Origin: an uncultured Burkholderiales bacterium | Lineage (GTDB): Bacteria > Pseudomonadota > Gammaproteobacteria > Burkholderiales > Burkholderiaceae_C | Direction of reading: 5' to 3' | Assembly: GCA_903844825.1 (NCBI GenBank) | Contig: CAIMVC010000170.1 | Location: forward strand, 1-52,575 | DNA: 52,575 nucleotides | Shown: positions 10,251-38,497 of the stretch, one piece after another | How positions within the stretch are numbered: position 1 is the stretch's first letter | Layout: each line of letters starts with the position of its first letter | Notes under the pieces: generated by a model | The model's database searches: none | What the model was told of the DNA's origin: nothing | The model's input: only the letters and a program-made list of their open reading frames with translations | Translations under genes and position numbers: made by a program

Positions 10251-11894
10251 TCAGGCCGGCTGATGGGTCGGGGCATCAAATTGAAGGCCCGGGTAGCCAT
10301 CGGCGATGACCTTCTCGCAGATGGCCGTGTAGTTCTGCAGGCCGCCGACGTAGGGCAGCAAGACCTTGGGTTTGCCCGGGATGTTCGCGCCCATGTACCA
10401 GGAGTCGGTCTGGGTGAACAGCGTGCCCGAGGCCACCTGGTCGACGTGTGCGACCCAGTCGTTTTCGGCGCTCGCCAGGGGCTCGATATGGGTGCTGCCG
10501 CTGGCCTGCATGTGGGCCAGGCAGCGAGCAATCCAGTCCACATGCTGCTCGATGGCGACGATCACGTTGGTCAGCACCGACGGGCTGCCCGGTCCGGTGA
10601 TGATGAAGAAATTGGGAAAGCCCGCGGCCATCAGTCCCAGGAAGGTGCGCGGCCCCTGCGCCCACTTGTCCTTGAGCGCCAGGCCGCCCCGACCGCGCAG
10701 CTCAATGCGGTCCAGTGCGCCCGTCACCGCGTCGTAGCCGGTGGCAAATACGATGCTGTCCAAAGCGTAGGTCTGAGCAGTGGTCTGTATGCCTTCTGCC
10801 ACCAGGCTCTGAAGGGGCGTGGCACGCAGGTCCACAAGATCGACATGCGGCAGGTTGAAGGTGGCGTAGTAGTCGGTGTCCACGCAAATGCGTTTGGTGC
10901 CAATGGCGTGGTCGGTGGGTGCCAGTAGCGCCGCCTTGCGCGGGTCGGTGACGGTGCTGCGGATCTTGTGGCGCACGAACTCCGCGGCGCTCTCGTTGGC
11001 CGCTGGGTTGGTGAAAATGTCGTTGAAGGCGTGTGTGAAATTGGCGCCGCCGCGCTGCCAGCGTCGTTCAAATTCGGCCTGGCGCTCCGCCTCGTCCACC
11101 TCAAAGGCCGAGCGCTGGCTGTAGTCGTACAAAACGCCCGAGCGTGTGTTGCGTGCCTTGGCTCGCATCTGGGCGTACTGCGCCTTCCAGGCGCGCTGGT
11201 CGTCTTCGGGCAGGGGGCCGTTCCAGGCTGGGATGCTGAAGTTGGGGGTGCGCTGAAATACCACCACTTCCTTAGCCTGCCGCGCAATCGTCGGTATGAG
11301 CTGAATGCCCGACGAGCCGGTGCCGATCACGCCGACTCGCTGACCGGTGAAATCAACCGCCTCGTGGGGCCAGTTGCCGGTGTGGTACCAGCGCCCCTTG
11401 AAGTCGGCCAGGCCGGCCATGTCGGGCACCTTGGCGGCCGACAGACAGCCGGCTGCCGAGATCAGAAAGCGCGCTTTCAGCGTTTGCTTGCCGTCGGTCT
11501 GCACGTGCCAGTCGTCGGCGGCTTCGTCATACCGGGCCTGGGTGACGCGGGTGTTCAGGCAGATGTCGCGGCGCAGGTCAAAGCGGTCAGCGACGTGGTT
11601 GATGTAGCGCAGGATTTCTTCCTGCCGTGGGTAGCGCTCGCTCCACTGCCAGCTTTGCTGCAGCTCCTCGGAAAAAGAATACGAGTACTGCATGCTTTCG
11701 ACGTCGCAGCGCGCGCCGGGGTAGCGGTTCCAATACCAGGTGCCGCCGACGCCGTCGCCGGCTTCGATGACGCGTACGCTCAGTCCGAGCTGGCGCAGGC
11801 GAATGAGCATGTAAAGCCCGGCAAATCCGGCGCCGATCACGATCGCGTCGTAGTCCTTGGTTTCGCTCGGGCTGGAGCCGGCGGGATGGGTCAT
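10251..11894 (-). CDS. Flavin-containing Baeyer-Villiger monooxygenase (class I), paralog 2
   Basis: [10 protein letters not shown]; BVMO fingerprint [23 protein letters not shown]; extensive similarity to 2734-4368. Confidence 0.92.
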   Translation of the reverse strand: [547 protein letters not shown]

Positions 11895-11917: not shown

Positions 11918-12919
11918 TCAGATGCTCTGTGCCGGTGCGACCGGTGCGGCTGTTGATGTTGGTGCAGGCGGTCCGCGGTGCAGCGCGTCGCCGAGAACGG
12001 CGCCGATGTAGTCCATCGCAAAATGCCCGGCGCGCACAAAATTACCCTGTGTCAGCAGACCGTGCAACTGATCGTTGAGGTGCAGCGCGGTGACGCGCAC
12101 GCCCTCGTCTTCGAGCCGCTGCGCGTAGGCGCGGCCCTCGTCGCACAGCGGGTCGTTGCCGGCGGTTAGCACCAGTGCCGGCGGCGTGCTGGCTAGTTGC
12201 GGGGCCCGCAGCGGTGAAGCCCGCCAGTCCAGCCGGTCGGCCGGGTTGGGCGTGTAGTGCGAAATGAAATAGGCCATGGTCGCCGCCGTCAGGGGCACGC
12301 CCGACGTGACGCGGCTGTAAGAGGGGCTTTGCGCCGTGAGGTCGACCACCGGGTAGAGCAGCAATTGGTAGGCCGCTGGCGCGAGCTCGCCGTCGCGGCC
12401 CATCAGGGCCAGCACAGCGGCCAGATTTCCGCCAGCGCTGTCGCCGCCTACCGCCACCCGGTCCGGCGCAATGTTCAGCTCGTCGCAGTGCCCGCTCACC
12501 CAGCGCCAGGCACTGGCGCAGTCCTGCAGGGCGGCGGGAAAAACGTGTTCGGGCGCGAGCCGGTAATCGACCGCCACCACACAGATGCGGGCCCGGTTGG
12601 CGAGCTGGCGGCACATCCGGTCGTGGCTCTCGAGGTTGCCGAGGATCCAGCCTCCCCCGTGCAAAAAAACCAGGCAGGGCAGCCGCTCATCGGGCCCGGT
12701 GCCGCTGCCCCGGTAGACCCGCAGCGCCAGTGGCCCGGCCGGGCCGGCAATGCTCAGGTCCCGAGTGGATGCAACGGCCTGCGCCGGCGACTGCATCACG
12801 TCCCAACTGCTGGCATAGGCACTGCGGGCGGCCTCGGGGCTCAGCGCCTCAAAGGGAGGGCGAGCGGCCTTGCGCCCGATTTCAAGCAGGATCTGGACGT
12901 CTGGATCGAAAATGGGCAT
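11918..12919 (-). CDS. Alpha/beta hydrolase (hormone-sensitive lipase-like)
   Basis: HGGGW oxyanion motif, GDSAGGN nucleophile elbow. Confidence 0.92.
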   Translation of the reverse strand: MPIFDPDVQILLEIGRKAARPPFEALSPEAARSAYASSWDVMQSPAQAVASTRDLSIAGPAGPLALRVYRGSGTGPDERLPCLVFLHGGGWILGNLESHDRMCRQLANRARICVVAVDYRLAPEHVFPAALQDCASAWRWVSGHCDELNIAPDRVAVGGDSAGGNLAAVLALMGRDGELAPAAYQLLLYPVVDLTAQSPSYSRVTSGVPLTAATMAYFISHYTPNPADRLDWRASPLRAPQLASTPPALVLTAGNDPLCDEGRAYAQRLEDEGVRVTALHLNDQLHGLLTQGNFVRAGHFAMDYIGAVLGDALHRGPPAPTSTAAPVAPAQSI

Positions 12920-15998: not shown

Positions 15999-16706
15999 AT
16001 GACAGATACGGCTAGCACGCCAGCCCCCGCCGCAGCGATCGTGGGTCAGACGCTCACACGCCTTGAAATGCAAGCACTCATCGCCAGCGCGCCGACGCCG
16101 CTGGTTTTTGAGGCTTGCGATTTTGAAGGGCTTGACCTGTCGCAGCTGGACATGCAGGGCTTTGAGTTTGTCAGTTGCAGCTGGATCGAGGCTTCGCTGT
16201 ATGCCTCGGTGCTTTCGGGCAGCGTCTGGCGTGGATGCCGCGGCAGGCAGGCCGACTTTGAGGCGGCGCAGCTGCAAGATGCGCGATTTGACAGCTGTGA
16301 CCTCAACAACACCAACTGGCGCCGTGCCAGGTTGTCCTCGGCGCACTTCAAGGCCAGCAAGCTGACCGGCGCCAATTTCGAAGAAGTCGCGCACTTTGGG
16401 TTGGTGCTGGAAGACAGCTTGCTGATTGGCGCGAACCTGCGCGGGATGTCCTTTCGGAAAATGCAGCTGCAGCAACTCGATTTTTCCGACGCCGACCTGG
16501 CCGGCTGCGATTTCAGGGACGCGGTCTTTGTCGGCGGGAGTCTTCGAGACGCTCTGTTCAAGTTGACCCGCTTTGAAGGCGCCGACCTACGCGAGGCCGA
16601 CCTGGGTGGCTTGAAGCTCGAGGATGCCAGGCTGTTTCGCGGCGCCACGATCTCGCTGAACCAGGCCGCCGGCCTGCTCGGCGAGATGGGGATACGGGTG
16701 GCCTGA
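15999..16706 (+). CDS. Pentapeptide repeat-containing protein
   Basis: A(D/N)LxX-type repeats (ADFEAAQLQDARFDSCDLNNTNWRRARLSSAHFKASKLTGANF). Confidence 0.88.
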   Translation: MTDTASTPAPAAAIVGQTLTRLEMQALIASAPTPLVFEACDFEGLDLSQLDMQGFEFVSCSWIEASLYASVLSGSVWRGCRGRQADFEAAQLQDARFDSCDLNNTNWRRARLSSAHFKASKLTGANFEEVAHFGLVLEDSLLIGANLRGMSFRKMQLQQLDFSDADLAGCDFRDAVFVGGSLRDALFKLTRFEGADLREADLGGLKLEDARLFRGATISLNQAAGLLGEMGIRVA

Positions 16707-16718
16707 GGGCGCTGGCGC

Positions 16719-17486
16719 CTACTGCCCGCGCCACTTGGGCGCGCGCCGCTCCGCAAAGGCGGTGGCGCCTTCGCGGGCGTCGGCCGACCCCAGCAAGTGG
16801 CCGGTGATGGGTTCCTGGCGGGCGAACATCTCCCCGAGCGGCCAGTCGCGTTGCTCGATGATCACCTGCTTGCTGGCCGCCACCGCCAGCGGCGCATTGG
16901 CCATGATGCGGCGGGCCAGTGTCTTGGCTTCTTCCAGGGCCTGACCGGGCTCGACCAGGGCATTGATCAGGCCGTACTGGTGCAGGCGCTCGGCCGAAAT
17001 CATGTCGCCGGTCAGCGCCGCCTCCATGGCGATGCGTTGCGGTATCAGGCGCGGCAGGCGCATCAGGCCACCGGCCGCAGCGGCCAGGCCGCGCTTGACT
17101 TCGGGCAGGCCGAACTGCGCGTTGCGGGCGGCCACCACCAGGTCGCAAGCCAGCACCGCTTCAAAACCACCGGCCAGCGCGTAGCCTTCGACGGCGGCGA
17201 TCAGTGGCTTGCGCGGCGGTGTCATGGCCAGCCCCAGAATGCCGCGACCTTTGACCCGCGTGACTTCGCCGCGCAAATAGGCCTTGAGGTCCATGCCGGC
17301 GCAAAACGTGCCGCCCGCGCCGGTCAGGATGCCGACATGCAAATCGCTGCGGTGGTCCAGCTCGTCGATGGCGGCGCACACGCCGTAAGACACCGCCCGG
17401 TTGACCGCGTTGCGCTGATCGGGACGGTTGATGGTGACGACCACCAGGCCATCGAGGTGTTCGACCAGAACTTCAGCAGTTGTCAT
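16719..17486 (-). CDS. Enoyl-CoA hydratase/isomerase (crotonase) family protein
   Basis: VVTINRPDQRNAVN, GAGGTFCAGMDL, AAVEGYALAGGFEAVLACDLVVAA. Confidence 0.92.
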   Translation of the reverse strand: MTTAEVLVEHLDGLVVVTINRPDQRNAVNRAVSYGVCAAIDELDHRSDLHVGILTGAGGTFCAGMDLKAYLRGEVTRVKGRGILGLAMTPPRKPLIAAVEGYALAGGFEAVLACDLVVAARNAQFGLPEVKRGLAAAAGGLMRLPRLIPQRIAMEAALTGDMISAERLHQYGLINALVEPGQALEEAKTLARRIMANAPLAVAASKQVIIEQRDWPLGEMFARQEPITGHLLGSADAREGATAFAERRAPKWRGQ

Positions 17487-17509: not shown

Positions 17510-18640
17510 TCAGTCCTCGGCGGGGCTGAGCTTGCGCAGCCGGTCCATGGTTTCCAGGTACTCAAGCTGCATTTGGTACATCACGTCGCGCACACTGGTT
17601 TCTTCGTGCAGCAGCCCCACCACCTGGCCTGCCGGGAAGGAGTACAGGTCTTTTCGTTTGGCCCGCACCACACGCGCATGGGCTTCGTTGTAGAGGATAC
17701 CTTGCAAAGGTGTGGGCAGGTACTCGGGCGCGCCGGGTGCTTCCCAGGCCTCTGACAGCCGGCTCTTGATCATGCGCACGGTCTTGCCGGTGCGGGCCTT
17801 GCGGCGCACGGCGTCCTGGGCGCGGGTGGCAAAGAGCGCCTCTTTTTCAAAGGGGTCGAGCTCGCTCTCGGTGGTGCCCAGCCAGACCGTGCCGCACCAC
17901 ACGCCTTGCGCGCCCAGCGCCAACGCCGCGGCGATCTGGCTGCCCTTGGCAATGCCGCCAGCGGCCAGCACGGCGACTTCGTCACCACAGGCCTCGACGA
18001 CCTGCGGCACCAGCACCATGGTGGCGATCTCGCCGGTATGGCCACCGGCCTCGGTGCCCTGGGCCACGATCAATTGCACCCCGGCTGCCTTGTGGCGCGC
18101 GGCATGTTCACCCTTGCCGCACATGGCGCCAATCATCACCTGGTGTTCGCGCAGTTGCGCCACCACATCGGGCGGCGGCGAGCCCAGCGCGCTGACCACC
18201 AACTTCACCTGCGGGTGCCTGAGCGTCACGGCCAGCAGCCGGCGTGCGCCGTCGGGCGTCATGTTGCCGCGCCCGTCGATGATCTCGCGGTGAATGCGCT
18301 CGCGCTCCCCCGGTGGCAGCTCAGGCACACCTTCGGCCTGCAAAAAATCGTCCATGAAGGCCCGGTGCGCGGCCGGAATCATGGTCTCGAGGTCGGCGCT
18401 GGTGGTCTCTGCCTCCTTGTCGTACTTGGTCGGGATGATCACGTCCACGCCGTAGGGCCGGCCGTCGACGTGGTCATCGATCCAGCGCAGCTCGGATTCG
18501 AGTTGCTCGGGCGAAAAGGTCGAGGCGCCCAGCACGCCAAAGCCGCCGGCCCGGGTGACCTCGACGACCACGTCGCGGCAATGGGAAAAGGCAAAGATCG
18601 GCAGTTCGCAGCCGAGTTGTTCACAAAGAGGGGTACGCAT
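17510..18640 (-). CDS. Nitronate monooxygenase-family flavoprotein
   Basis: AAGVQLIVAQGTEAGGHTG...VLAAGGIAKGSQIAAALALGAQGVWCGT; ATG at 18640. Confidence 0.82.
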   Translation of the reverse strand: MRTPLCEQLGCELPIFAFSHCRDVVVEVTRAGGFGVLGASTFSPEQLESELRWIDDHVDGRPYGVDVIIPTKYDKEAETTSADLETMIPAAHRAFMDDFLQAEGVPELPPGERERIHREIIDGRGNMTPDGARRLLAVTLRHPQVKLVVSALGSPPPDVVAQLREHQVMIGAMCGKGEHAARHKAAGVQLIVAQGTEAGGHTGEIATMVLVPQVVEACGDEVAVLAAGGIAKGSQIAAALALGAQGVWCGTVWLGTTESELDPFEKEALFATRAQDAVRRKARTGKTVRMIKSRLSEAWEAPGAPEYLPTPLQGILYNEAHARVVRAKRKDLYSFPAGQVVGLLHEETSVRDVMYQMQLEYLETMDRLRKLSPAED

Positions 18641-18677: not shown

Positions 18678-20879
18678 TCAGTGGGCCGCAGCGGCCTGTG
18701 GCGCATCGCCCTGCCAAACGAACAGCGCATCCAGCGCCTCGACCTGGCTGCCACGCACCCACAGCGGGTTGACGTCCAGCGCTTCCAGCTCAGGCCCGAG
18801 GCGCACGATGGCCAGGCCGATGCGCTCAATCGCCTGGGCCACCGCATCGAGGTCGGCCGCTGGCACACCGCGCTGACCGCTCAGCAGCTTGGCACCGCGC
18901 AGGCTGGTGAGCATACGTTTGATTTCGCGCGCATCGACGGGCAGGGGCCGCAGGGCCACATCTTGCAGCACTTCAACCCACACGCCGCCGAGTCCGACGG
19001 CGAGCACAGGGCCCCACTGCGGGTCGCGGGTATAGCCGACAAAAAGCTCGATCCCGCGTTCGCGCATGGGCGCGACGATGACGCCGTCGATTTTGGCCTC
19101 GGGGCATTTTTCCCTGGCTGCGGCCAGCACGCGTTCGGTTGCTTCGCGCACGGCGTCGTCGCCGCGCAGGTTTAGCGCCACGCCGCCAATGTCGCTCTTG
19201 TGGGCGATATCGGCTGATGCAATCTTGACCACCACCGCGCGGTCCAGCGCGCGTGCCGCGGCCACCGCGGCCTGCGCGTTGCCAGCGAGTTGGGTCGGCA
19301 CCACGGGCACGCCCTGTTCGGCCAGAAAGCGCAGTGCCTGATGTTCAGAGCGTGGGCGCGCAGGGCCTGCGATGGCCGCAGCGGGCGAAGTCGACGCGGC
19401 CGTTGAAACGGCAGCGCCTGCGGACGCTGTCAAGGCGCGCTGATGTGCTGACCACCAGAAGGCCCCCTGCAGGCCGGTCAGAGCGCGGTCCAGGCCGCAG
19501 GCCAGGTAATCGGCGCCGGTCTGCGCAATGATGCCGCGCGCAAAATCATTGATGCGCGTGTTGGTGTAGCTCACCAGCAGGCCGGGGATGGGCGCTGCCG
19601 CCAGGCCGCGCGCGAGATGGTGATGCAACTCGGTCAGGCGCTCGCTCATGCCCTCGGCGCTGGTGGGAATCTCGTACCAGGGGCACAAGATGGCCGCGTA
19701 GTTGGCCTGCGTGGCCAGGATGTTCAGCGTGTCTTCGCACTGCTGGGGCGTGACCGAGCCGGTCATGTCCAGCGGGTTATGGGCTGCGGCGGTCTCGGGC
19801 AGGGTGCCCAGCAAGCCTTGCACCTGGCTGGGGCCGAGCTCGGGCAGCGCCATGCCGCGCAGGTCGGCTGAATCCGCAGCGATTTCGGCGACGCCGCCCG
19901 AGTTGGTCATCACGCACAGACCGCCGTCGCGCAGCACGCCGGTGCGGCCCATCACGTCAGCGGTGGCCAGCAGGTCTTCTAAGGAGTGCACGCGCACGAT
20001 ACCGAACTGCTGGCAGATGCCTTCAAAGACCCGGTCGTCGCCGACCAGCGCACCGGTGTGCGCCATGGCAGATTTGGCGGTGACTTCGCTGGCGCCTACC
20101 TTGAGCATCACCAGCGGTTTGCCCAGGCGCATGGCACGTTCGGCCACGCGCAAAAACCGCTGCGGGTGCCGGAAAGTCTCGGCAAACACGGCGATTGAGC
20201 GGGTCTGCGGATCGTCCAGAAAGTAGTCAATGAAACTGCTGCCGTCCAGATCGACCTCGTTGCCGGTGGACACCACGTGGCTGAGCCCGACGTCTTGCTG
20301 ATGCGCCAGTGTCGACAAGAAGTAGGCCGTGGCGCCGCTTTGCGAAACGATGGCCACGCCCGAGTTGCGCGACGGCGCCATCACCGGCGTGGTCCACACA
20401 TAGGCCCGGTTGACGAAGTTGATAAAGCCCAGGCAGTTGGGCCCGAGCAGGGCAATCCGGTGCTGCGCGGCCAGTGCCTTCAAATGATCTTGCTGCGCCT
20501 GGCCGGCGGCGCCAAGCTCGGCAAAACCGGCTGTGAGAATCACCGCTGAGCTCGCACCCGCGGCCGCCAGATCCCTCAGCGCGTCGGCCACTGCAGCCGG
20601 TGGGGCCATGACCAGACCCAGGTCGATCGGCGCGCCCACGGCAGCGCAAGACACCGCTGTTGGCTGACCATGTGCCAGTGCGCCGCGGGGATTGACTAGA
20701 TGCACCGCACCCTGGAAGCCGCCGCTGCGCAGGTTTTCGAAAGCGGTGGCCGACCAGCGCGAGCGGTCTGACGCGCCGATGATGGCGACCGACTTAGGCG
20801 CCAGCAGGCGCGCGACGGCTTCGCGTTGGGCCTGTTCTTCAGCGAGCGTGTCGGCGGTGGGGTCCGATGGCACAGTCAT
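18678..20879 (-). CDS. Acetate--CoA ligase (ADP-forming)-type acyl-CoA synthetase
   Basis: CoA-binding N-terminus (VAIIGASDRSRWSATAFENL), AMAHTGALVGDD, ATP-grasp C-terminus; ATG overlaps the stop of the upstream Bug gene. Confidence 0.88.
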   Translation of the reverse strand: MTVPSDPTADTLAEEQAQREAVARLLAPKSVAIIGASDRSRWSATAFENLRSGGFQGAVHLVNPRGALAHGQPTAVSCAAVGAPIDLGLVMAPPAAVADALRDLAAAGASSAVILTAGFAELGAAGQAQQDHLKALAAQHRIALLGPNCLGFINFVNRAYVWTTPVMAPSRNSGVAIVSQSGATAYFLSTLAHQQDVGLSHVVSTGNEVDLDGSSFIDYFLDDPQTRSIAVFAETFRHPQRFLRVAERAMRLGKPLVMLKVGASEVTAKSAMAHTGALVGDDRVFEGICQQFGIVRVHSLEDLLATADVMGRTGVLRDGGLCVMTNSGGVAEIAADSADLRGMALPELGPSQVQGLLGTLPETAAAHNPLDMTGSVTPQQCEDTLNILATQANYAAILCPWYEIPTSAEGMSERLTELHHHLARGLAAAPIPGLLVSYTNTRINDFARGIIAQTGADYLACGLDRALTGLQGAFWWSAHQRALTASAGAAVSTAASTSPAAAIAGPARPRSEHQALRFLAEQGVPVVPTQLAGNAQAAVAAARALDRAVVVKIASADIAHKSDIGGVALNLRGDDAVREATERVLAAAREKCPEAKIDGVIVAPMRERGIELFVGYTRDPQWGPVLAVGLGGVWVEVLQDVALRPLPVDAREIKRMLTSLRGAKLLSGQRGVPAADLDAVAQAIERIGLAIVRLGPELEALDVNPLWVRGSQVEALDALFVWQGDAPQAAAAH

Positions 20880-21877
20880 TAAAGCGCGATCCCCAGTTTT
20901 TTGACCACGGGGGTCCAGCGTGCGATTTCGCCGGCGACGTAGGTGCGTGCCTGCGCTGGTGTGGAGTTGGTGATGCTCTGGATGCCCAGCTGCGACAGGC
21001 GCTCCTGAATCGCCGGACGGCTCATCACGCGCGACACCGCCTTGGCAATCGGCTCAATCACCTCGGCCGGTGTGCCCAGCGGTGCGGCCAGCAAATTGCA
21101 GGTGCCGGCCAGGAGGTCGTAGCCGGCCTCGCGCGAGGTCGGAATTTCAGGGGCGATTTTTTCGCGGGCTTCAGCCATGGTGGTGATGATGCGCAGCCTG
21201 CCTGCCTTGTGGTGGGGCAAGAGCGTGCCTGAGGTCTCGACGATGAACTGAACATTGCCGGCGATGGTGTCGGTGATGGCGCCAGCGCTGCCAGCGTAAG
21301 GGACGTCGACGACATCAATGCCGGCAATGTCTTTGAAGAGTTCGGCGGCCAGATGCACCGTGGTGCCCAGACCAGCGTGGCCGTAAGACAGCTTGCCTGG
21401 CCGCGCCTTGGCATAGGCGACCAGCTCCTTGAGGGTGGTCACGGGCAGCGTCGGGTTGACGGCGATGACGAAAGGTGCGTTGGACAGCAGGGCGATCCAG
21501 GTGTAATCCTCGACCGGGTTGTAGGGGGGCTTGGCACGGGAAATGGGCGCCGAGATGGCGGTCGAGCCCGTCGCCAGCATCAGCTGGCTGCCGTCTTTGG
21601 GGCTGCGCAAAAAGCCAATGGCCACGGTCATGCCGCCGCCACCGGGCTTGTTTTCGATGATCACGGTGCGGCCCAGTTCTTCGCGCAGGCCGTCGGCCAG
21701 AATCCGCGCGAACAAGTCGCCAGAGCCACCAGGCGGAAAACCCACCGCAATTTTGAGCGTGGCGTCATTGCTTTGCGCGGCCACCGGACCCAGGCCCAGT
21801 GTGGCATTGGCCAGCGCCAGTGCGCCGCCCAGCATGAGTTGTCGTTTGCTGCCTTGAAATTGCGTTGGATTGGCCAT
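20879..21877 (-). CDS. Bug/tripartite tricarboxylate receptor-family substrate-binding protein
   Basis: IAVGFPPGGSGDLFARILADGLREELGRTVIIENKPGGGG; ATG at 21877 with signal peptide. Confidence 0.9.
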   Translation of the reverse strand: MANPTQFQGSKRQLMLGGALALANATLGLGPVAAQSNDATLKIAVGFPPGGSGDLFARILADGLREELGRTVIIENKPGGGGMTVAIGFLRSPKDGSQLMLATGSTAISAPISRAKPPYNPVEDYTWIALLSNAPFVIAVNPTLPVTTLKELVAYAKARPGKLSYGHAGLGTTVHLAAELFKDIAGIDVVDVPYAGSAGAITDTIAGNVQFIVETSGTLLPHHKAGRLRIITTMAEAREKIAPEIPTSREAGYDLLAGTCNLLAAPLGTPAEVIEPIAKAVSRVMSRPAIQERLSQLGIQSITNSTPAQARTYVAGEIARWTPVVKKLGIAL

Positions 21878-21995: not shown

Positions 21996-22451
21996 TTACC
22001 GGACCAGCTCGAACCAGAAGTCGAGCACGTCGCCGGTGCGCTTTTGCGCAAAGCGCGTGATCACCGGCGTGCCAATAGCCAGTTGTGCGGCAGCCTTGGC
22101 GCCGTCACTCAGGTCCAGGCCCTTGAAGTAGCCACCGATGGCGGTGTCTGCGCCCTTGAGCAACACGTAGCCGAAAGCATAAGGGGGATCGGGCAGGTTG
22201 TTGAAAGCCTCGTAGACGATGGTGAAGCACTCGATCGTGCCTTCGGGGCCGACGGGCACCCACTCTTTTGTCGGCTCCAGGGTTTCGTCCGAAAAAGCGC
22301 GTGGCGGCACCAGCACGCGGCCCGACTTGGGGTCGCGGCGACCGTAGATCTGCTGGTTGTCGCGGATTTGTGAAAAGAAGTAGCTGGCGGTCTCACCCAA
22401 CGCGTGGTTGTAGGTGATGTTCCATTGCTCGGTGCGGGTCATCAGTTCCAT
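21996..22451 (-). CDS. DUF35/OB-fold protein (zinc-ribbon cysteines absent)
   Basis: DUF35 architecture next to a thiolase-fold gene; ribbon region reads YGRRDPKSGRVLVPPRAFSDETLEP with no Cys. Confidence 0.75.
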   Translation of the reverse strand: MELMTRTEQWNITYNHALGETASYFFSQIRDNQQIYGRRDPKSGRVLVPPRAFSDETLEPTKEWVPVGPEGTIECFTIVYEAFNNLPDPPYAFGYVLLKGADTAIGGYFKGLDLSDGAKAAAQLAIGTPVITRFAQKRTGDVLDFWFELVR

Positions 22452-22499
22452 GTTCGTGTCCTCGTTTTTAAGTTCGGTAATTGAATGTGTTTGAAAGCT

Positions 22500-23678
22500 T
22501 CAGGCTTCGACGACCATGGTGCCGAAAAACTGGTGATCGCCGCCGTTGCCGCTGGCAATGCCGCGTTTTGCGCCTTGGACCTGGTGACCGCCCGCACGAC
22601 CCCAGACCTGCAGCGCCACTTCGGCCACCCGCACCATGGCGGTCACGGCGATGGCGTTGGAGCACAGCGTGCCGCCCGAGGGGTTGACCGGGCTTTGGCC
22701 GCCCAGCTTGAAATAGCCTTCGCGCAGCATCCTGGGTGACTGGCCGATCTTGGCCAGGCCGGCGGCTTCAATGGCGTGAAACTCGGTGTTGCTAAACGGC
22801 GAGTACATCTCGGCCACGTCAATTTGCTTGACCGGGTCGGTCACACCCGCCATGCGGTACGCCGCCTGGCAGGCCTCGCCCAGCGCCTTGGCATCGGCGT
22901 GGTCGGCGGTGTAGCCGTTGCCCATGCGGTCGCCAATGAAGTAGCTCTCGGAGTTATGCGCCACGCCGGTGATCCAGACCGCGTCGAGCTTGTTGTCGCG
23001 GATATAGGCCTCAGACGCCAGCACCATGGCGCAGCCTCCGCTCGATTGCGGGCAGGCATCAAACAGTTTGATGGGCCAGGAGACCATGCGCGAGGCCATC
23101 ACCTCTTCAATGGTGGTGAGCTTGCGCAAATGCGCGTTCGGGTTGAGCGAGGCATGAAAGCGGTTTTTCACCACAATGCTGGCCATGTCTTCCTCGGTCA
23201 TGCCGTACTTGTGCATGTAGCGCACCGCCGACATCGCCAGCATGGTGATGGTCCCCAACGGCAGCGAGCGCTCGTAGGCCGGGTCCCAGATCTTGTTGAG
23301 GATGGTTTGCGAGTCGCCGCACTCACCGACCTTGTCGGCACCGGCCACCAGCGCCACATCGCAAGCGCCTGCGGCGATATGCGAATGGGCTGCAGCCAGC
23401 GAAGACAGGCCGGTCGAGCCACCGGTGTTGATGCGCATGAAGCGCTTGTTGCGCGCACCCACCGCATCAACGCCCAGACGCTCGGCATTGCCGATGCCCA
23501 GCAGCGCATCCGGCGCCAGCGAATAGACCACCGCTTCAATCTGGTCGAGCTGCATGCTGGCGTCGTTCAATGCCAGGGTCACGGCTTCTCGCACAAGCTC
23601 GGGGTAGTTGGCGTCAGGGCGTTTGGCCTTGAACTGGGATTGTCCGATCCCCACGATTCCAACGCGTGGCACTTTCAT
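22500..23678 (-). CDS. Thiolase-fold protein (SCPx/lipid-transfer-protein type), paralog A
   Basis: VGIVGIGQSQF, NTGGSTGLSS at the position of the usual nucleophile, NPSGGTLCSNAIAV. Confidence 0.85.
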   Translation of the reverse strand: MKVPRVGIVGIGQSQFKAKRPDANYPELVREAVTLALNDASMQLDQIEAVVYSLAPDALLGIGNAERLGVDAVGARNKRFMRINTGGSTGLSSLAAAHSHIAAGACDVALVAGADKVGECGDSQTILNKIWDPAYERSLPLGTITMLAMSAVRYMHKYGMTEEDMASIVVKNRFHASLNPNAHLRKLTTIEEVMASRMVSWPIKLFDACPQSSGGCAMVLASEAYIRDNKLDAVWITGVAHNSESYFIGDRMGNGYTADHADAKALGEACQAAYRMAGVTDPVKQIDVAEMYSPFSNTEFHAIEAAGLAKIGQSPRMLREGYFKLGGQSPVNPSGGTLCSNAIAVTAMVRVAEVALQVWGRAGGHQVQGAKRGIASGNGGDHQFFGTMVVEA

Positions 23679-24844
23679 TGGGTCATCTCCTTGGATTCGC
23701 GGCCGAACACGACCACGGTGTTGTATTGCATGGCAAAGCCGCTGGCGCCGTGGGCCACAGCGCGGCTAACGTTCGCCAGCTGGTGCGAGCCGGCGCGACC
23801 GCGTGCCTGGTTGGCGGCTTCGGCAATGCGCATCAGTCCGCTGCAAAAGATCGGGTTGTACGACGTGGCGCCGCCCGACAGGTTGGTGGGCAAGACGCCG
23901 CCTTCGGAGAAGTCGCCGCGTGCCGTGGCAGTCACCCATTGGTCACGTTCGCACAGGCCCAGGCCCTCGAGTGCGATCAGCTCCTGGTAGGCGGTCGCGT
24001 CTGCAACTTCAGCGACTTCAAAGGCTTGCCGGGCTTCAGTGATGCCGGCTTCGGCGTAGGCCTGCTTGGCGGCGGCCTGCAAGGACGTCACCTGGCCCAG
24101 GTCGCGGTCGCCCAGGAAGGCGGTTTCGGTGGCCCAGCCCATGCCGTGGATCCAGGCCGTGTTTTGGCTGTTCTTCTCGGCGATCCATTCTTCGCTGGCC
24201 AGAACCATGGCCACTGCGCCGAAGTCCGGTCGGCTGACCATGCCTTCGGTGAGCGGCCAGCGCAGCATTTTGCTGTTGGTGATGCTCACGCGCTCCATGG
24301 GAGTCGGCGACAAATGAGGATAAGCCCGGGCCCCGTGGCGGCGGTTCTTGACGGTGGTGTTGAGCGCCGCCTCCCGCAGGCCAGGAACTTGCGCTTCGAG
24401 GACGTTGGCCTGCAGCGCATGCGAGGCCAGGTCGTCAAGCGGCAGCGCGCGGTGGTAGTAAGGGTCGTTGCTCAGGCGCTGCGTCTCGTTGACATCGGCC
24501 GTCTCCAGCGGATTCCAGGCCACCACCAATTGCGTTTTGTACATGCCCGAGCGCACCCGCAGGGCGCCCAGTACAAAGGCGTGTTCGGCGCTCGACGGCG
24601 TCGACAAGATGTCGCGTCCCACGCCACCCACTGAGCCCGAGGCCATCATGATCGAAATGGCGCGGCCATCGAGCTGGTCGTTGCCTGCCACGACGATGCC
24701 GTCAATGTCTTCGATCGTCATGCCGGCGTCGCGCAGAGCCAGTTGCACAACAGCGTGCAAGGACTCTTCCAGATAAGACTGTTCAGGACGACGGGGCGCA
24801 TAAATGGCGCTTCCGATCACCCCGACCTGAGGTCGTTTTTCCAT
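23675..24844 (-). CDS. Thiolase-fold protein, paralog B
   Basis: QVGVIGSAIYAP, STPSSAEHAFV, NLSGGATSYNPIFCSGLMRIAEAANQARGRAGSHQ; ATGA overlap with paralog A. Confidence 0.8.
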   Translation of the reverse strand: MEKRPQVGVIGSAIYAPRRPEQSYLEESLHAVVQLALRDAGMTIEDIDGIVVAGNDQLDGRAISIMMASGSVGGVGRDILSTPSSAEHAFVLGALRVRSGMYKTQLVVAWNPLETADVNETQRLSNDPYYHRALPLDDLASHALQANVLEAQVPGLREAALNTTVKNRRHGARAYPHLSPTPMERVSITNSKMLRWPLTEGMVSRPDFGAVAMVLASEEWIAEKNSQNTAWIHGMGWATETAFLGDRDLGQVTSLQAAAKQAYAEAGITEARQAFEVAEVADATAYQELIALEGLGLCERDQWVTATARGDFSEGGVLPTNLSGGATSYNPIFCSGLMRIAEAANQARGRAGSHQLANVSRAVAHGASGFAMQYNTVVVFGRESKEMTQ

Positions 24845-25105: not shown

Positions 25106-26215
25106 ATGGCAACACTTCCCCTGACCGGTGTCAGGATCCTGAGCTTGGCTGAGCAGTACCCCGGCCCCTATGCGACCTTGTTACTGGCCGACCTGGGGGC
25201 CGACGTGATCATGGTCGAGCGGCCCGGCAGCGGCGATCCGTCCCGTCGTTTTGCCGGCCTCTTTGCTTCGTTCAACCGCAACAAGCGCTCGGTGGCGCTG
25301 GACCTGAAGTCCGATGAAGGCCATGCGGCATTTTTGGAGCTCGTGGACAGCGCCGACGTGGTGATGGAAGGCTTTCGTCCGGGCGTGATGGACCGCCTCA
25401 AGCTCGGCGCCGACGCGCTGCGTGCGCGCAAGCCGGGTCTGGTGTTTGTGTCGATATCCTCGTTCGGTCAACACGGGCCGCTGGCCGGCGTCGCAGGGCA
25501 CGACCTGAGCGTACAGGCCGCCGCCGGCATGTTGCAGGTACCCGTCGGGCAAGAGGCGCAGCTGGCCTTGCCCATGCTGCCCCTGGGGGATATTGCTTCG
25601 GCCATGTTCGCGGCCATGGGCGTGGTGTCGGCGCTTTATGCCCGAAAGAGCTCGGGGCAGGGGGCGTCGATTGACGTGTCGATGCTGGACTGCCTGGTGA
25701 GCTGGATGACCCCGTTCTTGATGCCGCCCATGAACCAGTTGCCGACGCGGGAGCTGCCGCCGCCGGATCCGGGCTACGGGATATTTCTGACGGCCGACCA
25801 GCGTCAAATCACGCTGAGCATTGCCGGGGAAGACAGCATGTGGGCGGCGCTGTGCGAGATGCTGGCGCTGCCGCAGTTCGCCGCGCTAGGTGAAGACGAG
25901 CGCAGCCGCCGGGCCCGGGAGATTGATCCATTTTTGCGCAGCGCCATCGGCAAGCAAAGCTATGAGTCGTTTTACCAGCAGCTCCAGGCGCAGGGTATCG
26001 CTTTCGGGCCGGTGCTGGGCCTGACGCAGGTGCTGCAAGACCCGCAGTTGCAACTGCGCGGCATGACCCAGGCCTTCGCCGAAGCTGCGGGTATCCGCAA
26101 CTATGTGCGCCAGCCGTTGCTTATCGATGGTCAGCCAACCGGTATTTATCGGGCCCCACCTGCACTTGGTGAGCACAACCATGAACTGCTCGTAAACCCG
26201 GCAGTTGGTCGCTGA
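25106..26215 (+). CDS. CaiB/BaiF family CoA-transferase
   Basis: LPLTGVRILSLAEQYPGPYATLLLADLGADVIMVERPGSGDPSR. Confidence 0.92.
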   Translation: MATLPLTGVRILSLAEQYPGPYATLLLADLGADVIMVERPGSGDPSRRFAGLFASFNRNKRSVALDLKSDEGHAAFLELVDSADVVMEGFRPGVMDRLKLGADALRARKPGLVFVSISSFGQHGPLAGVAGHDLSVQAAAGMLQVPVGQEAQLALPMLPLGDIASAMFAAMGVVSALYARKSSGQGASIDVSMLDCLVSWMTPFLMPPMNQLPTRELPPPDPGYGIFLTADQRQITLSIAGEDSMWAALCEMLALPQFAALGEDERSRRAREIDPFLRSAIGKQSYESFYQQLQAQGIAFGPVLGLTQVLQDPQLQLRGMTQAFAEAAGIRNYVRQPLLIDGQPTGIYRAPPALGEHNHELLVNPAVGR

Positions 26216-27037: not shown

Positions 27038-27439
27038 TCAGGCGAGTGCCTCGAAAACCAGATTGACGCCACCCTCGCGGGCCTCAAACCGACCCTGGAC
27101 CGGCTGGCCTAGTACGGGAGTGCGATCGCTGCGCCACAGTCCCAGTGCCCGCACGCCTTCCTCGAGGTCAATGGTCACCAGGGTGTAGGGCAAGTCGGCT
27201 GCAAAGGCTGGGTGAAAGGCGTGGTGCGCGACCGTCCAGCTGTGCACTGCGCCGCGCCCGCTGGCGTCAACCCAGCGCACGGCGTTCGAATAGCAATGGC
27301 TGCACAGCAGCTGCGGGTAATGCCGGATCTTGCCGCAGTCCGCGCAGCACTGCAGGCTGAGCCGGCCTTCGGCCGCAGCGTCCCAGTAGGGCCGCGACAT
27401 GTCGCTGACAGCGGGCGTTGGTTTCATGACTTTGTCCAT
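27038..27439 (-). CDS. DUF35 Zn-ribbon OB-fold protein (cysteines intact)
   Basis: MSRPYWDAAAEGRLSLQCCADCGKIRHYPQLLCSHCYSNAVRWVDASGRGAVHSWTVAHH; ATG at 27439. Confidence 0.88.
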   Translation of the reverse strand: MDKVMKPTPAVSDMSRPYWDAAAEGRLSLQCCADCGKIRHYPQLLCSHCYSNAVRWVDASGRGAVHSWTVAHHAFHPAFAADLPYTLVTIDLEEGVRALGLWRSDRTPVLGQPVQGRFEAREGGVNLVFEALA

Positions 27440-27443
27440 GGAA

Positions 27444-28598
27444 TTATTCTCCGCGCATGATGGCCAGGGCGCCGTCGCCCATGTCGCCGTAACCTGTGAC
27501 CAGACCGACTTTGGCGTTGGCCACCTGGGCTCGCCCGGCGTCGCCACGTAACTGGCGCACCAACTCGACGATGTGATTGAGTCCCCAGACATGGGCTTGC
27601 GACAGCAGGCCGCCATGGGTGTTTGTGGGCAAGGCGCCGCCCAGGCGCAGCCTGCCGCCTTCAACGAAAGCGCCGCCCTCGCCTTTGCCGCAAAAGCCCA
27701 TGTCCTCAAGTTGCCGGATCACCGCGTAGGTAAAGCAGTCGTAGATTTCGGTCACGTCGATGTCGGCGTGCGTGAAGCCGCTCATCTCGAAGGCCCGCGG
27801 CGCTGCCTTGGCAATGCCCAGGCTGGTCATGTCGGGGCGCTGGGTGATCGAGCCCGGCGAGTCGGGGTGCCCCGCCGCCACACCTGAGATAAAGACCCGC
27901 GCGTGCCGCAGGTCGGCGGCTTGGTCAGCTGCGCTCACCACAATGGCGGCGCCGCCGTCACTCTCGAGGCTGCAGTCGAGCAGGCGAAAGGGGTCGGCAA
28001 TCATGCGCGAGTTGCGGTGGTCTTCGAGCGTGATGGGTTTTCTCATGACCGCGTTGTCATTGAGCAGCGCATGCTGGCGGCAGGCGACGGCGACCTCGCC
28101 GAAGTGCTCAACGGTGGTGCCATAGAGCTCCATGTGCCGGCGCGCCATGGGGGCGTACAGCTGCGCCGGGGCAATGGCACCCATCGGGTATTCAAACTCG
28201 GTCACGAAATGAAATTGCGGCATGCCGTGAATGCGCGCGCCGGCCTTGTTCGAGGCGGCCGTGACATTGCGTCCGAAGGTGATCAAGACATGCTTACAAA
28301 CGCCGGCCGCAATCGCCGACGCGGCGGCTTGCAGGGCCATGGTGGGGCTGGCGCCACCGTGCGGGATCAGGGCCGAAAAGCGCAGGTCGGGCAGGCCGAA
28401 GTTGTCGATGAAGTCGTCGGCGGTGCCGCTGACGATGCCAATCGGAATGATGCCGTCAATCTCCTTGGGCGTCAGACCGGCATCGGCGATGGCTTTGAGG
28501 GAGGCTTCGAGTTGGAGCTCAAAGGCGGTCTTGGTCGAGCCGCGCATGTAGACGGTCTCGCCAATGCCCGTGACGCAGGCTTTGTCTTTCAGGCTCAT
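27444..28598 (-). CDS. Thiolase-fold protein (Ltp2/SCPx-like), paralog C
   Basis: ACVTGIGETVY, EIYDCFTYAVIRQLEDMGFCGKGEGGAFVEGG, LPTNTHGGLLSQAHVWG. Confidence 0.85.
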   Translation of the reverse strand: MSLKDKACVTGIGETVYMRGSTKTAFELQLEASLKAIADAGLTPKEIDGIIPIGIVSGTADDFIDNFGLPDLRFSALIPHGGASPTMALQAAASAIAAGVCKHVLITFGRNVTAASNKAGARIHGMPQFHFVTEFEYPMGAIAPAQLYAPMARRHMELYGTTVEHFGEVAVACRQHALLNDNAVMRKPITLEDHRNSRMIADPFRLLDCSLESDGGAAIVVSAADQAADLRHARVFISGVAAGHPDSPGSITQRPDMTSLGIAKAAPRAFEMSGFTHADIDVTEIYDCFTYAVIRQLEDMGFCGKGEGGAFVEGGRLRLGGALPTNTHGGLLSQAHVWGLNHIVELVRQLRGDAGRAQVANAKVGLVTGYGDMGDGALAIMRGE

Positions 28599-35954: not shown

Positions 35955-37052
35955 TCATGCTTTGTAGCCCAGGCGGGTCGACAGCCGCTCTGCGGCTTCA
36001 CGCAGGCGGGCAACGGCCGGGTCTGCCGCATTGAAGCTGGCATCGCCCATCATGGTCAGGGCCAGCACGATGGCGCCCGAGGCGTCAAAAACGGGGGCGC
36101 TCATGGCGTTCACCCCGAGCTCGTTGACGTCGGCGATGACGGCGTCTTCAATCGAGGCCAGCCGCATCTGGCGCACCTGCGCCAGATGCGCATCGACCGC
36201 TTCGCGCGTCTTGAAAGGCGAGTCGGGCAGGTGTTGCAAGGCGGCGATTTCGGCGTCGAGGTAGCGGCCCGTGAGCAGCGGGTCAGAAAACGCGGCAAAG
36301 ACCTTGCCGGTGGACGAACCCAGCAGCGGAATCACCATGCCGGCGCGCAGGCGCACGTCAAGAGGTTTGCTCGCCTCGATCCACCAGATCAGGGTCGGAC
36401 CCATATTGCCCCAGACACCCAGCCCGACCGTCTTGTCAGTCTCGCGGCTGAGGTCCTCCAGGCAGGGGCGGGCCAGATGAACGGCGCGCAGCGTGGCGAT
36501 ATTGCCTGAGCCGACCTCGCCTTTTTGGGTGTTGTCGTAGGGGTGCACCACCATGTAGCGCCCGGCGCCGAAGGCCAGTGGCTTGCGTGCGCTGCCCAGC
36601 AAGCGCTCGACGCGCCCGAGAAACAGCAGGTGGTCGCCGCCGGGGTAGGTCGCTTCGGTGCTGCATTCGAGGTAGGCGGCGCAACCGTCGATCAGCGGCA
36701 GGCCACCCAGGCCGGCGGTGATGGACACGCCATTGAACCGGTCATCGCCGGACTTGGCGAAGCGGTTGGAGACTTCGACCTGGTCTTCAGACAAGATGTT
36801 GACGACAAAGCGCTTGGCCCGGCTGTAGACGTCGAAGGTGCGTGCGTTCAGGCGCAGGCTCCAGACGATCAGCGGCGGGTCCAGCGAAACCGAGTTAAAC
36901 GAGTTGGCGGTCATGCCCACCGGCCGGCCCTGCTCATCGAGCGTGGTGATCACCGTCACGCCAGTGACAAAAGAGCCCAGGCAGCGACGCAACTCGGCCG
37001 GGTCGATGGCTGGCGGTGGCGCGGCGGGCGCCAAAAGGGGGTTGGTGGTCAT
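35955..37052 (-). CDS. Flavin reductase fused to an IclR-type effector-binding domain
   Basis: N-terminus LRRCLGSFVTGVTVITTLDEQGRPVGMTANSFNSVSLDPPLIVWSL (flavin reductase); C-terminus IATLRAVHLARPCLEDLSRETDKTVGLGVWGNMGPTLIWWIEASKPLDVRLRAGMVIPLLGSSTGKVFAAF (IclR effector domain). Confidence 0.88.
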   Translation of the reverse strand: MTTNPLLAPAAPPPAIDPAELRRCLGSFVTGVTVITTLDEQGRPVGMTANSFNSVSLDPPLIVWSLRLNARTFDVYSRAKRFVVNILSEDQVEVSNRFAKSGDDRFNGVSITAGLGGLPLIDGCAAYLECSTEATYPGGDHLLFLGRVERLLGSARKPLAFGAGRYMVVHPYDNTQKGEVGSGNIATLRAVHLARPCLEDLSRETDKTVGLGVWGNMGPTLIWWIEASKPLDVRLRAGMVIPLLGSSTGKVFAAFSDPLLTGRYLDAEIAALQHLPDSPFKTREAVDAHLAQVRQMRLASIEDAVIADVNELGVNAMSAPVFDASGAIVLALTMMGDASFNAADPAVARLREAAERLSTRLGYKA

Positions 37053-37183: not shown

Positions 37184-38497
37184 TTAGCTCATCAGGTTGT
37201 CGCGGAAAGTCTGGCCGCTGTAGGCCGTGCGGAAAATACCGCGTTTTTGCAGCAGGGGCACCACCTGATCGACAAAATCGTCGACGCTGTCGGGGTTGGT
37301 GGTGGGGCTCAGGTTAAAGCCGTAACAGCCCGTCTCGCGCCAGATGCGCTCGAACTCGCTGGCGACTTGCTCGGGCGTGCCGATGATTTTTGGAATACCC
37401 ACCGACAAGGCCCAATTTGACGCCGCTTCGCGCAGCGTTAAGGTCTTGCCGTCGCTGCCGTTCATGAACACCGCCAGCAAGCCCTGCGAAGCCTGGGTTT
37501 GCAACTCGGCCAGCGGCTTGTCGGGGTCGAACTTGCTTAGATCGGTGCCGATGATGCCTGACAGGCGCGCCAGCGTGGCGTCCAGCGGGATGCGCTCGAG
37601 CAGTTCTTCGGCGCGCTGCCTGGCTTCGGCTTCGGTGCTGCGCACAATCGGCTGCAGGCCAAAAATGATCTTCAGGTCATCGGGGTTGGCGCCATGCTTG
37701 GCAGCGGCGGCGTGCAGGTTTTGCGTGCTCTTGATCATGCCGGGCACGTGGTTGTGAATCGCAAAGATCACTTCAGCATGTTTCATGGCGAATTCCATGC
37801 CACGCCCGGAGGAGCCGGCCTGAAAGCGCAGGGGCAGACCATACTTGGACGGCAGCACCGGCCCGACGGCCTTGCAGCTGAGGTACTTGCCCTGGTAGTC
37901 CACCGGTGTGATCAGGTCCGGGTTGGCAAACTGGCCGTTTTTCCTGTCCATCAAAATGGCCTGGTTCGGCACGCTGTCCCAGAGGCGGTAGCAAATTTCC
38001 ATGAACTCGTCGGCCTGGTCGTAGCGCTCGTCATGCGGGGTTTGTAACCCTAGGCCGTTGGCCAACTGCTCTGCCTCGCTGAAGCCGCAGACGATGTTCC
38101 AGCCCACACGGCCGCGGCTGAGGTAGTTCAGGGTCGAGATGCGGCGTGTGGCCAGGTAAGGCGTGGTGCCGGTGGTGGACAGCGTCACGCCAATGCCCAG
38201 GTGCGTGGTGGCCGCTGCCATGGCCGCCACCAGGGGCATCGGGTCATGGTTGGGCCAGGACACGCCGTACTGCACCGAGGGCACGGCGCTGCCTTTGTAG
38301 ACCGCGTGGGTGGCCGGGCTGTCGGCAAAGAAAACGCCGTCAAAACAGCCCCGCTCCAGGGTCCGCGCCACGTGCTGCCAGTAAGCAAAGTCCTGCAAGC
38401 CGTCGAGCTGCCCGTCGTTGGGGTCGGTCCAGCTCATGAGCGTGTGGGTGGTGGCCGTCGAGACCAGCATTTGCATCAAATGCATTTGAGATGACAT
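37184..38497 (-). CDS. LLM class flavin-dependent monooxygenase (NtaA/SnaA/DszA-like)
   Basis: HLGIGVTLSTTGTTPYLATRRISTLNYLSRGRVGWNIVCGF; FQAGSSGRGMEFAMKHAEVIF. Confidence 0.92.
   Translation of the reverse strand: MSSQMHLMQMLVSTATTHTLMSWTDPNDGQLDGLQDFAYWQHVARTLERGCFDGVFFADSPATHAVYKGSAVPSVQYGVSWPNHDPMPLVAAMAAATTHLGIGVTLSTTGTTPYLATRRISTLNYLSRGRVGWNIVCGFSEAEQLANGLGLQTPHDERYDQADEFMEICYRLWDSVPNQAILMDRKNGQFANPDLITPVDYQGKYLSCKAVGPVLPSKYGLPLRFQAGSSGRGMEFAMKHAEVIFAIHNHVPGMIKSTQNLHAAAAKHGANPDDLKIIFGLQPIVRSTEAEARQRAEELLERIPLDATLARLSGIIGTDLSKFDPDKPLAELQTQASQGLLAVFMNGSDGKTLTLREAASNWALSVGIPKIIGTPEQVASEFERIWRETGCYGFNLSPTTNPDSVDDFVDQVVPLLQKRGIFRTAYSGQTFRDNLMS

Follow-up and report, generated by a model that had tools for sequence, protein, structure and literature searches.

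Ltp3 and Ltp4 are described as a heteromeric aldol-lyase that cleaves the C24-C25 bond of branched sterol chains (PMC6678751, PMC4761994, PMC8708139), and in Mycobacterium tuberculosis their genes stand behind that of a DUF35 protein in the order Rv3521, ltp4, ltp3 (PMC6429209). Two further aldolases pair a thiolase fold with a DUF35 protein, Ltp2-ChsH2(DUF35) (6OK1) and Sal-Shy(DUF35) (9MYR), with Tyr294 (in YDHF) and Tyr344 as catalytic residues in Ltp2 and Tyr302 and Cys304 (YDCY) in Sal, whose Gln352 matches the position of Ltp2 Tyr344 (PMC12329534). Here, we analyze three adjacent genes, referred to as B, A, and the DUF35 gene, on contig CAIMVC010000170.1 of an uncultured Burkholderiales bacterium (assembly GCA_903844825.1), a stretch of 52,575 nucleotides that we call the window. 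On balance, and with some reserve, we favor the view that their products assemble into one heteromeric aldol-lyase of the Ltp3/Ltp4/DUF35 kind, acting on a branched or ring-derived coenzyme A (CoA) ester, with A as the catalytic subunit. The trio comprises the following features:

23675..24844, minus strand: gene B, a thiolase-fold subunit of 389 amino acids on the Ltp4-like side (Pfam PF22691, AlphaFold model, alignments, and tree)
22500..23678, minus strand: gene A, an Ltp3-like thiolase-fold subunit of 392 amino acids (PF22691 and PF00108, NCBIfam, and tree)
21996..22451, minus strand: a DUF35 (OB_ChsH2_C) protein of 151 amino acids, probably a scaffold subunit (PF01796)
22272..22346, minus strand: the ribbon segment of the DUF35 protein, with D, S, S, and T in place of the ligands C, C, C, and C (gapless alignment, purifying selection)

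The genes form a tight minus-strand operon in the order B, A, DUF35, in which an ATGA overlap joins B and A (TCAT on the plus strand, 23675-23678) and 48 bp separate A from the DUF35 gene. A first-pass annotation of this DNA had reported this packing, and both it and the peptides that the annotation had read are present in the window where it had placed them: A contains NTGGSTGLSS and NPSGGTLCSNAIAV, B contains STPSSAEHAFV and NLSGGATSYNPIF, and the ribbon region of the DUF35 protein (nt 22346-22272, minus strand) reads YGRRDPKSGRVLVPPRAFSDETLEP. The underlying observation is therefore confirmed, while the interpretation given to it, as detailed below, is partly supported.

Alignment with solved enzymes places Gly (TGG) at the nucleophile position of A, and in B this position is lost inside TPSS, in agreement with the earlier claim that neither protein carries the nucleophilic Cys. 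The site corresponding to HDCF, YDHF, or YDCY reads YSPF (Y292-S-P294-F) in A and ADAT in B, and the GHP His aligns with Asn in both, at Asn341 in A and within YNP in B, such that the nucleophilic Cys, the HDCF Cys, and the GHP His of SCP2/SCP-x thiolases are absent from either subunit. The lack of a GHPxGxxG motif, also pointed out earlier, is real but not diagnostic, since the known aldolases Ltp2 and Sal share it; both also have Gly at the nucleophile position. In A, the equivalents of the Ltp2 and Sal catalytic positions are Tyr292, Pro294, and Asn341, and because Pro294 and Asn341 occupy the places of the aldolase His/Cys and Tyr/Gln, A is also without the known catalytic pair. These two residues are invariant in all 26 A-family members. 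Filing the trio under Ltp2 is not justified, YDHF/YDCY having given way to YSPF in A and being absent from B, and the remaining residues complete neither the catalytic set of thiolases nor that of the known aldolases.

The catalytic Cys and His were not recovered elsewhere in A by alignment. The protein holds a conserved Cys and a conserved His (C209 and H183), and C209 was rejected as a relocated nucleophile because it aligns with an extra Cys of a true SCP2-thiolase that also has its nucleophile; Cys339 was rejected likewise, since Ser takes its place in part of the family (L026 and the Ltp3-like rows). The AlphaFold model of B, with a predicted local distance difference test score (pLDDT) of 78, matches SCP2-thiolases, BbsB, PhlC, Ltp2, and Sal over its full length, with template modeling (TM) scores of about 0.76-0.82. 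A full predicted thiolase fold, devoid of catalytic residues and evolving faster, is what would be expected of a structural partner, and B is thus probably non-catalytic, with A the probable catalytic subunit.

In a maximum-likelihood tree of 82 proteins, with support values given as pairs, all A-type proteins, including the Ltp3-like ones, form a single clade (99/91), and all B-type proteins, including the Ltp4-like ones, fall on one side of the tree (99/94), where some branches are very long and the inner order is unsure. The nearest relatives of the trio are thus the actinobacterial sterol-cluster Ltp3/Ltp4/DUF35 sets and not PhlACB, BbsAB, or Ltp2, the systems with which it had first been compared; that comparison holds for the combination of DUF35 and thiolase-fold proteins but not for the closest kin. 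DUF35-Ltp4-Ltp3 sets are found on plasmid records of Tsukamurella, Nocardia, Streptomyces clavuligerus, and Nonomuraea, the Tsukamurella counterparts scoring 593 bits against PRK07937 (cut-off 419) and 734 bits against PRK08313 (cut-off 514) and lying near EchA19 and FadA5. Like Ltp3/Ltp4 with an Rv3521-type DUF35 protein, the locus has two different SCP-x-like genes adjoining a DUF35 gene, with A grouping with Ltp3 and B with Ltp4. In both, the nucleophilic Cys is lost, the A partner reads YxPF and has Asn in place of the GHP His, a DUF35 domain is Cys-less, and a hydratase, a CoA ligase, and a gene of the nitronate monooxygenase (NMO) family lie nearby. The same losses, Cys-less DUF35 domains included, already occur in the actinobacterial sets. 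Identity to Ltp3 and Ltp4 is, however, just 34-37% in A and 27-28% in B. Unlike in those sets, the DUF35 gene comes last rather than first and codes for one domain where they have a tandem of two, B has its full length while Ltp4 is shortened, and a Baeyer-Villiger-type monooxygenase and a hydrolase lie around the trio.

The resemblance to other described complexes is looser. Ltp2-ChsH2(DUF35) and Sal-Shy(DUF35) share with the trio the thiolase fold, the DUF35 protein, Gly at the nucleophile, and the YDxF Tyr of A; unlike the trio, however, they have one kind of aldolase subunit (a dimer) instead of two, a His or Cys in YDHF/YDCY where A has Pro, and a zinc-bearing DUF35 protein (Cys4 or Cys3His1). 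Benzoylsuccinyl-CoA thiolase BbsAB (7PXP) is also a complex of thiolase-fold and DUF35 proteins, but in BbsB both true-thiolase features, the nucleophilic Cys and the GHP, are retained. The acyltransferases PhlACB and MucABC (5M3K, 9VBO) likewise combine two thiolase-fold subunits with one DUF35 protein, but they have a catalytic Cys, carry out biosynthetic acyl transfer, and are distant in sequence.

The DUF35 protein contains an OB_ChsH2_C domain (PF01796, 32.2 bits against a cut-off of 27.1), and the Pfam scan gave no match in it to the zinc-ribbon model PF12172. It had been described as Cys-less, which is true of the ribbon, where all four ligands are replaced, but not of the whole protein, whose sole Cys sits in the OB domain (ECFTIV). 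The D/S/S/T positions align without gaps to relatives with C-x2-C-x10-C-x2-C, leaving the ribbon frame intact. In the AlphaFold model the DUF35 fold is predicted with a pLDDT of 80.6, the minimum of the structured part (about 57) falling at ribbon residues 51-60, and the model matches ChsH2-DUF35 (TM 0.65/0.75), BbsA, Shy-DUF35, PhlB, and the DUF35 chain of MucABC, with BbsAB (7PXP) as the best Foldseek match. Across ribbon residues 36-62, comparison with the nearest ortholog, L011, reveals 12 silent and no amino-acid changes, which indicates that the Cys-less form is maintained by selection; the ribbon itself is probably zinc-free.

Ribbons with four Cys occur in trio loci L030, L033, L035, L037, and L042 and in the own-genome paralogue L058, and ribbons with two (positions 1 and 3) in L031, L056, L057, L059, and L060. 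One Cys is left in L018, L025, L026, and L054 and in Rhodococcus L029, L034, and L036, and none in the window, L011-L017, L019-L022, L024, and L053, or in L032 and L055. In the proteins linked to Ltp3/Ltp4 there are two DUF35 domains. Among the four examined, the first is always Cys-less, and the number of Cys in the second is four, three, or zero; Cys-less ribbons therefore already occur among relatives of known systems. In one of the Rhodococcus loci (R. qingshengii CX-1, L036 9983-10309), the DUF35 gene stops early just ahead of an IS21-family transposase, and its product lacks roughly the last third. With ten DUF35 matches, most of them next to a thiolase-fold gene, the genome that contains the window has a notably large number for a single betaproteobacterial genome.

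The ratio of nonsynonymous to synonymous substitution rates (Ka/Ks), calculated against the two nearest orthologs, is 0.02-0.05 for the DUF35 gene, 0.05 for A, and 0.11-0.12 for B, demonstrating purifying selection on all three. The genes are found together and in order in 17 of 17 other loci that contain a close relative of B or of the DUF35 protein and extend far enough to show the trio; these values and this conservation rule out a decaying pseudogene. A search with B across about 85,000 genomes returned 16 real relatives, nearly all in Betaproteobacteria and two in Acetobacteraceae, with the order B-A-DUF35 wherever the stretch extends far enough; two short and weak matches in Bartonella (L027, L028) were discarded as spurious. 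The DUF35 protein occurs in 11 of 401 sampled genomes of the same family, and in all ten carriers besides the own genome it is adjoined by homologues of A and B; among 300 sampled genomes of the order, the own genome was the only match. Remoter trios are found on plasmids of Rhodococcus, Simplicispira, Cupriavidus, and haloarchaea.

Around the trio lie genes that would fit a catabolic pathway:

16719..17486, minus strand: an EchA19-related enoyl-CoA hydratase (PRK08252, 396 bits, cut-off 282; the EchA19 model comes second, 280 bits, cut-off 400)
17510..18640, minus strand: an NMO-family flavoprotein (PF03060)
18678..20879, minus strand: an ADP-forming acyl-CoA ligase
20879..21877, minus strand: a Bug/TTT-type periplasmic binding protein (open reading frame, recognized by eye)
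25106..26215, plus strand: a CaiB/BaiF CoA-transferase, divergent from B and often conserved beside the trio
10251..11894, minus strand: a Baeyer-Villiger-type monooxygenase (synteny)
11918..12919, minus strand: an alpha/beta hydrolase paired with this monooxygenase (PF07859)
27444..28598, minus strand: T2, again an SCP-x-like protein, with Gly at the nucleophile position and YDCF, a predicted retro-aldolase
27038..27439, minus strand: D2, the DUF35 protein belonging to T2, whose Cys4 ribbon is intact (CADC...CSHC; PF12172 and PF01796)

T2 and D2, 2.2 kb from the trio, look like an aldolase pair of the Sal/Ltp2 type. T2 has the aldolase motif that A and B lack, reading YDCF as in TbSLP (YDCY in Sal), it groups with Ltp2, Sal, and 4U4E in the 82-protein tree (100/100), and it matches PDB entries 4U4E (1.8e-73), 6OK1 (7.1e-69), and 9MYR (1.1e-47). 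It is thus this pair, rather than the trio, that belongs near the Ltp2/Sal steroid aldolases, and D2 provides an internal contrast to the ribbon loss in the trio. In L054, L058, and L031, T2-D2 follows directly behind the trio (A-DUF35-T2-D2); the two enzymes thus probably belong to one pathway. The L058 copy, on another contig of the same genome (C53, 1-4132), is a paralogous operon, A-DUF35-T2-D2-hydratase, that is truncated by the contig start and encodes an intact Cys4 ribbon (CPSC...CDAC).

The association of the trio with NMO, hydratase, and CoA ligase genes recurs in Actinobacteria, and the NMO homologues beside actinobacterial Ltp3/Ltp4 sets score 319-356 bits in whole genes (L039, L038) and 170 bits in a cut-off copy (L041). 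The Bug/TTT-type gene is kept after the DUF35 gene in Comamonadaceae loci, an AMP-forming CoA ligase also lies near the trio, and Baeyer-Villiger-like genes are found near trios in L014, L016, and L053 and in Rhodococcus L029 and L032. Taken together, these neighbors suggest a pathway in which a ketone is oxidized, hydrolyzed, activated with CoA, and shortened past a branch, and the substrate is probably an acid, branched or derived from a ring, that the Baeyer-Villiger monooxygenase helps to produce. The steroid marker KshA gave only a partial match below the cut-off in the own genome, which is weak evidence, the genome being 89% complete, and a literature search linking DUF35 proteins with monoterpene or Baeyer-Villiger pathways returned nothing relevant.

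Elsewhere in the window, a second Baeyer-Villiger-type monooxygenase is encoded at 2734-4368, and a branched-chain amino-acid type ATP-binding cassette transporter lies between the two (about 4.5-9.4 kb, by eye), such that this stretch resembles a catabolic island devoted to a ketone. A gene at 35955-37052 fuses a flavin reductase domain to an IclR-type C-terminal effector domain (PF01613 and PF01614) and adjoins an NtaA/DmoA-type luciferase-like monooxygenase gene (37184-38497), probably forming a two-component monooxygenase with a ligand-sensing reductase. Besides, a pentapeptide-repeat-like protein, recognized by eye only, is encoded beside the hydratase gene (15999-16706, plus strand).

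In the aldol-lyase that we favor, the EchA19-related hydratase could supply a beta-hydroxyacyl-CoA whose beta carbon is branched (tertiary), a compound that would be beyond the reach of an ordinary dehydrogenase plus thiolase. A would then take the hydroxyl proton, with Tyr292, which corresponds to the YDHF/YDCY Tyr employed by Ltp2 and Sal and is shared by 19 of the 26 A-family members, as candidate base, and split the alpha-beta C-C bond, releasing a ketone or aldehyde and acetyl- or propionyl-CoA, while B, as a degenerate partner, would complete the dimer and shape the substrate site, and the DUF35 protein would serve as a scaffold whose ribbon fold persists without zinc. With Pro294 and Asn341 at the His/Cys and Tyr/Gln positions of known aldolases, the acid that protonates the enolate must differ. 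Retro-aldol chemistry, one of the two reactions proposed in the first-pass annotation, is supported as the likeliest.

Several points weigh against this assignment. The NCBIfam scores stay below the cut-offs, at 299 bits for A against its best model, PRK08313 (cut-off 514), and at 188 bits against PRK08313 and 108 bits against PRK07937 (cut-off 419) for B. Tyr292 is Tyr in 19 of the 26 A-family members, Phe in six, and Gln in one, and is thus not universally required, and the Cys304 essential in Sal is Pro in every member. The role of Ltp3/Ltp4 itself comes from genetics as retold in reviews (PMC6678751, PMC4761994, PMC8708139), and 4-HBC is still formed in M. neoaurum after ltp3 and ltp4 knockouts, though this concerns a different step (PMC10398937). 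The literature searched yielded no in-vitro assay of Ltp3/Ltp4, nor did it yield their catalytic residues or structure.

Alternatively, the trio might act as a decarboxylase whose Cys-less thiolase-fold site releases CO2 from a CoA ester of the malonyl or beta-keto type, a reaction within the reach of Cys-less ketosynthase-like enzymes, and a lost nucleophile within a preserved fold is compatible with this. Decarboxylating thiolase-fold enzymes usually retain their oxyanion-hole residues, yet here the GHP His has become Asn and the HDCF position YSPF. TbSLP, with a similar loss, slowly decarboxylates malonyl-CoA, but Sal has no such activity (PMC12329534), and although a carboxylated intermediate is drawn around Ltp3/Ltp4 in the sterol pathway (PMC6678751), we regard decarboxylation as unlikely. 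We are equally skeptical of a trio without catalytic activity that would carry acyl-CoA or act as a scaffold, positioning the hydratase or the T2/D2 aldolase, which would cleave the C-C bond. Both known catalytic sets are incomplete in A as well as in B, and T2, with its Sal-type motif, does lie directly behind the trio in L054, L058, and L031; many trio loci, however, have no T2/D2 in the stretch available, and the strict conservation of P294 and N341 at formerly catalytic positions goes beyond the needs of a pure scaffold.

The C-C acyl transfer suggested earlier as the other possible reaction, of the PhlACB/MucABC kind, would agree with the three-part architecture and with the structural matches of the DUF35 protein to PhlB and the MucABC DUF35 chain. 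Phl-type enzymes work through a Cys (Cys88; a C88S variant is among the PDB matches), which is Gly in A and lost within TPSS in B, and the neighboring genes are catabolic, making this reading highly improbable. Least probable of all is an ordinary beta-ketothiolase, to which the thiolase fold and SCP-x family membership would point: without the nucleophilic Cys, the GHP His, and the HDCF Cys in either subunit, Cys-dependent thiolysis is not to be expected, as had been anticipated.

The heteromeric aldol-lyase thus remains the reading that we prefer, and its most interesting aspect is the proton donor, as neither the thiolase nor the known aldolase set is complete. More tentatively, the A/B/DUF35 family may represent a third type of thiolase-fold C-C lyase, with a site built around the invariant Pro294 and Asn341 instead of the thiolase Cys/His or the Ltp2/Sal Tyr-His/Cys, a DUF35 protein that shed its zinc stepwise, and, in Betaproteobacteria, a non-sterol, ring-derived substrate. 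The series of DUF35 proteins with four, two, one, and no ribbon Cys within one operon type constitutes a natural experiment on whether the zinc is structural and dispensable. Ltp3/Ltp4 act in plant-sterol breakdown, an industrial route to steroid drug precursors. The present trio, found mostly in environmental bacteria, has just one DUF35 domain and a B that is not shortened, and so offers a simpler test case for them, in which the 26 aligned A relatives point to residues for mutation.

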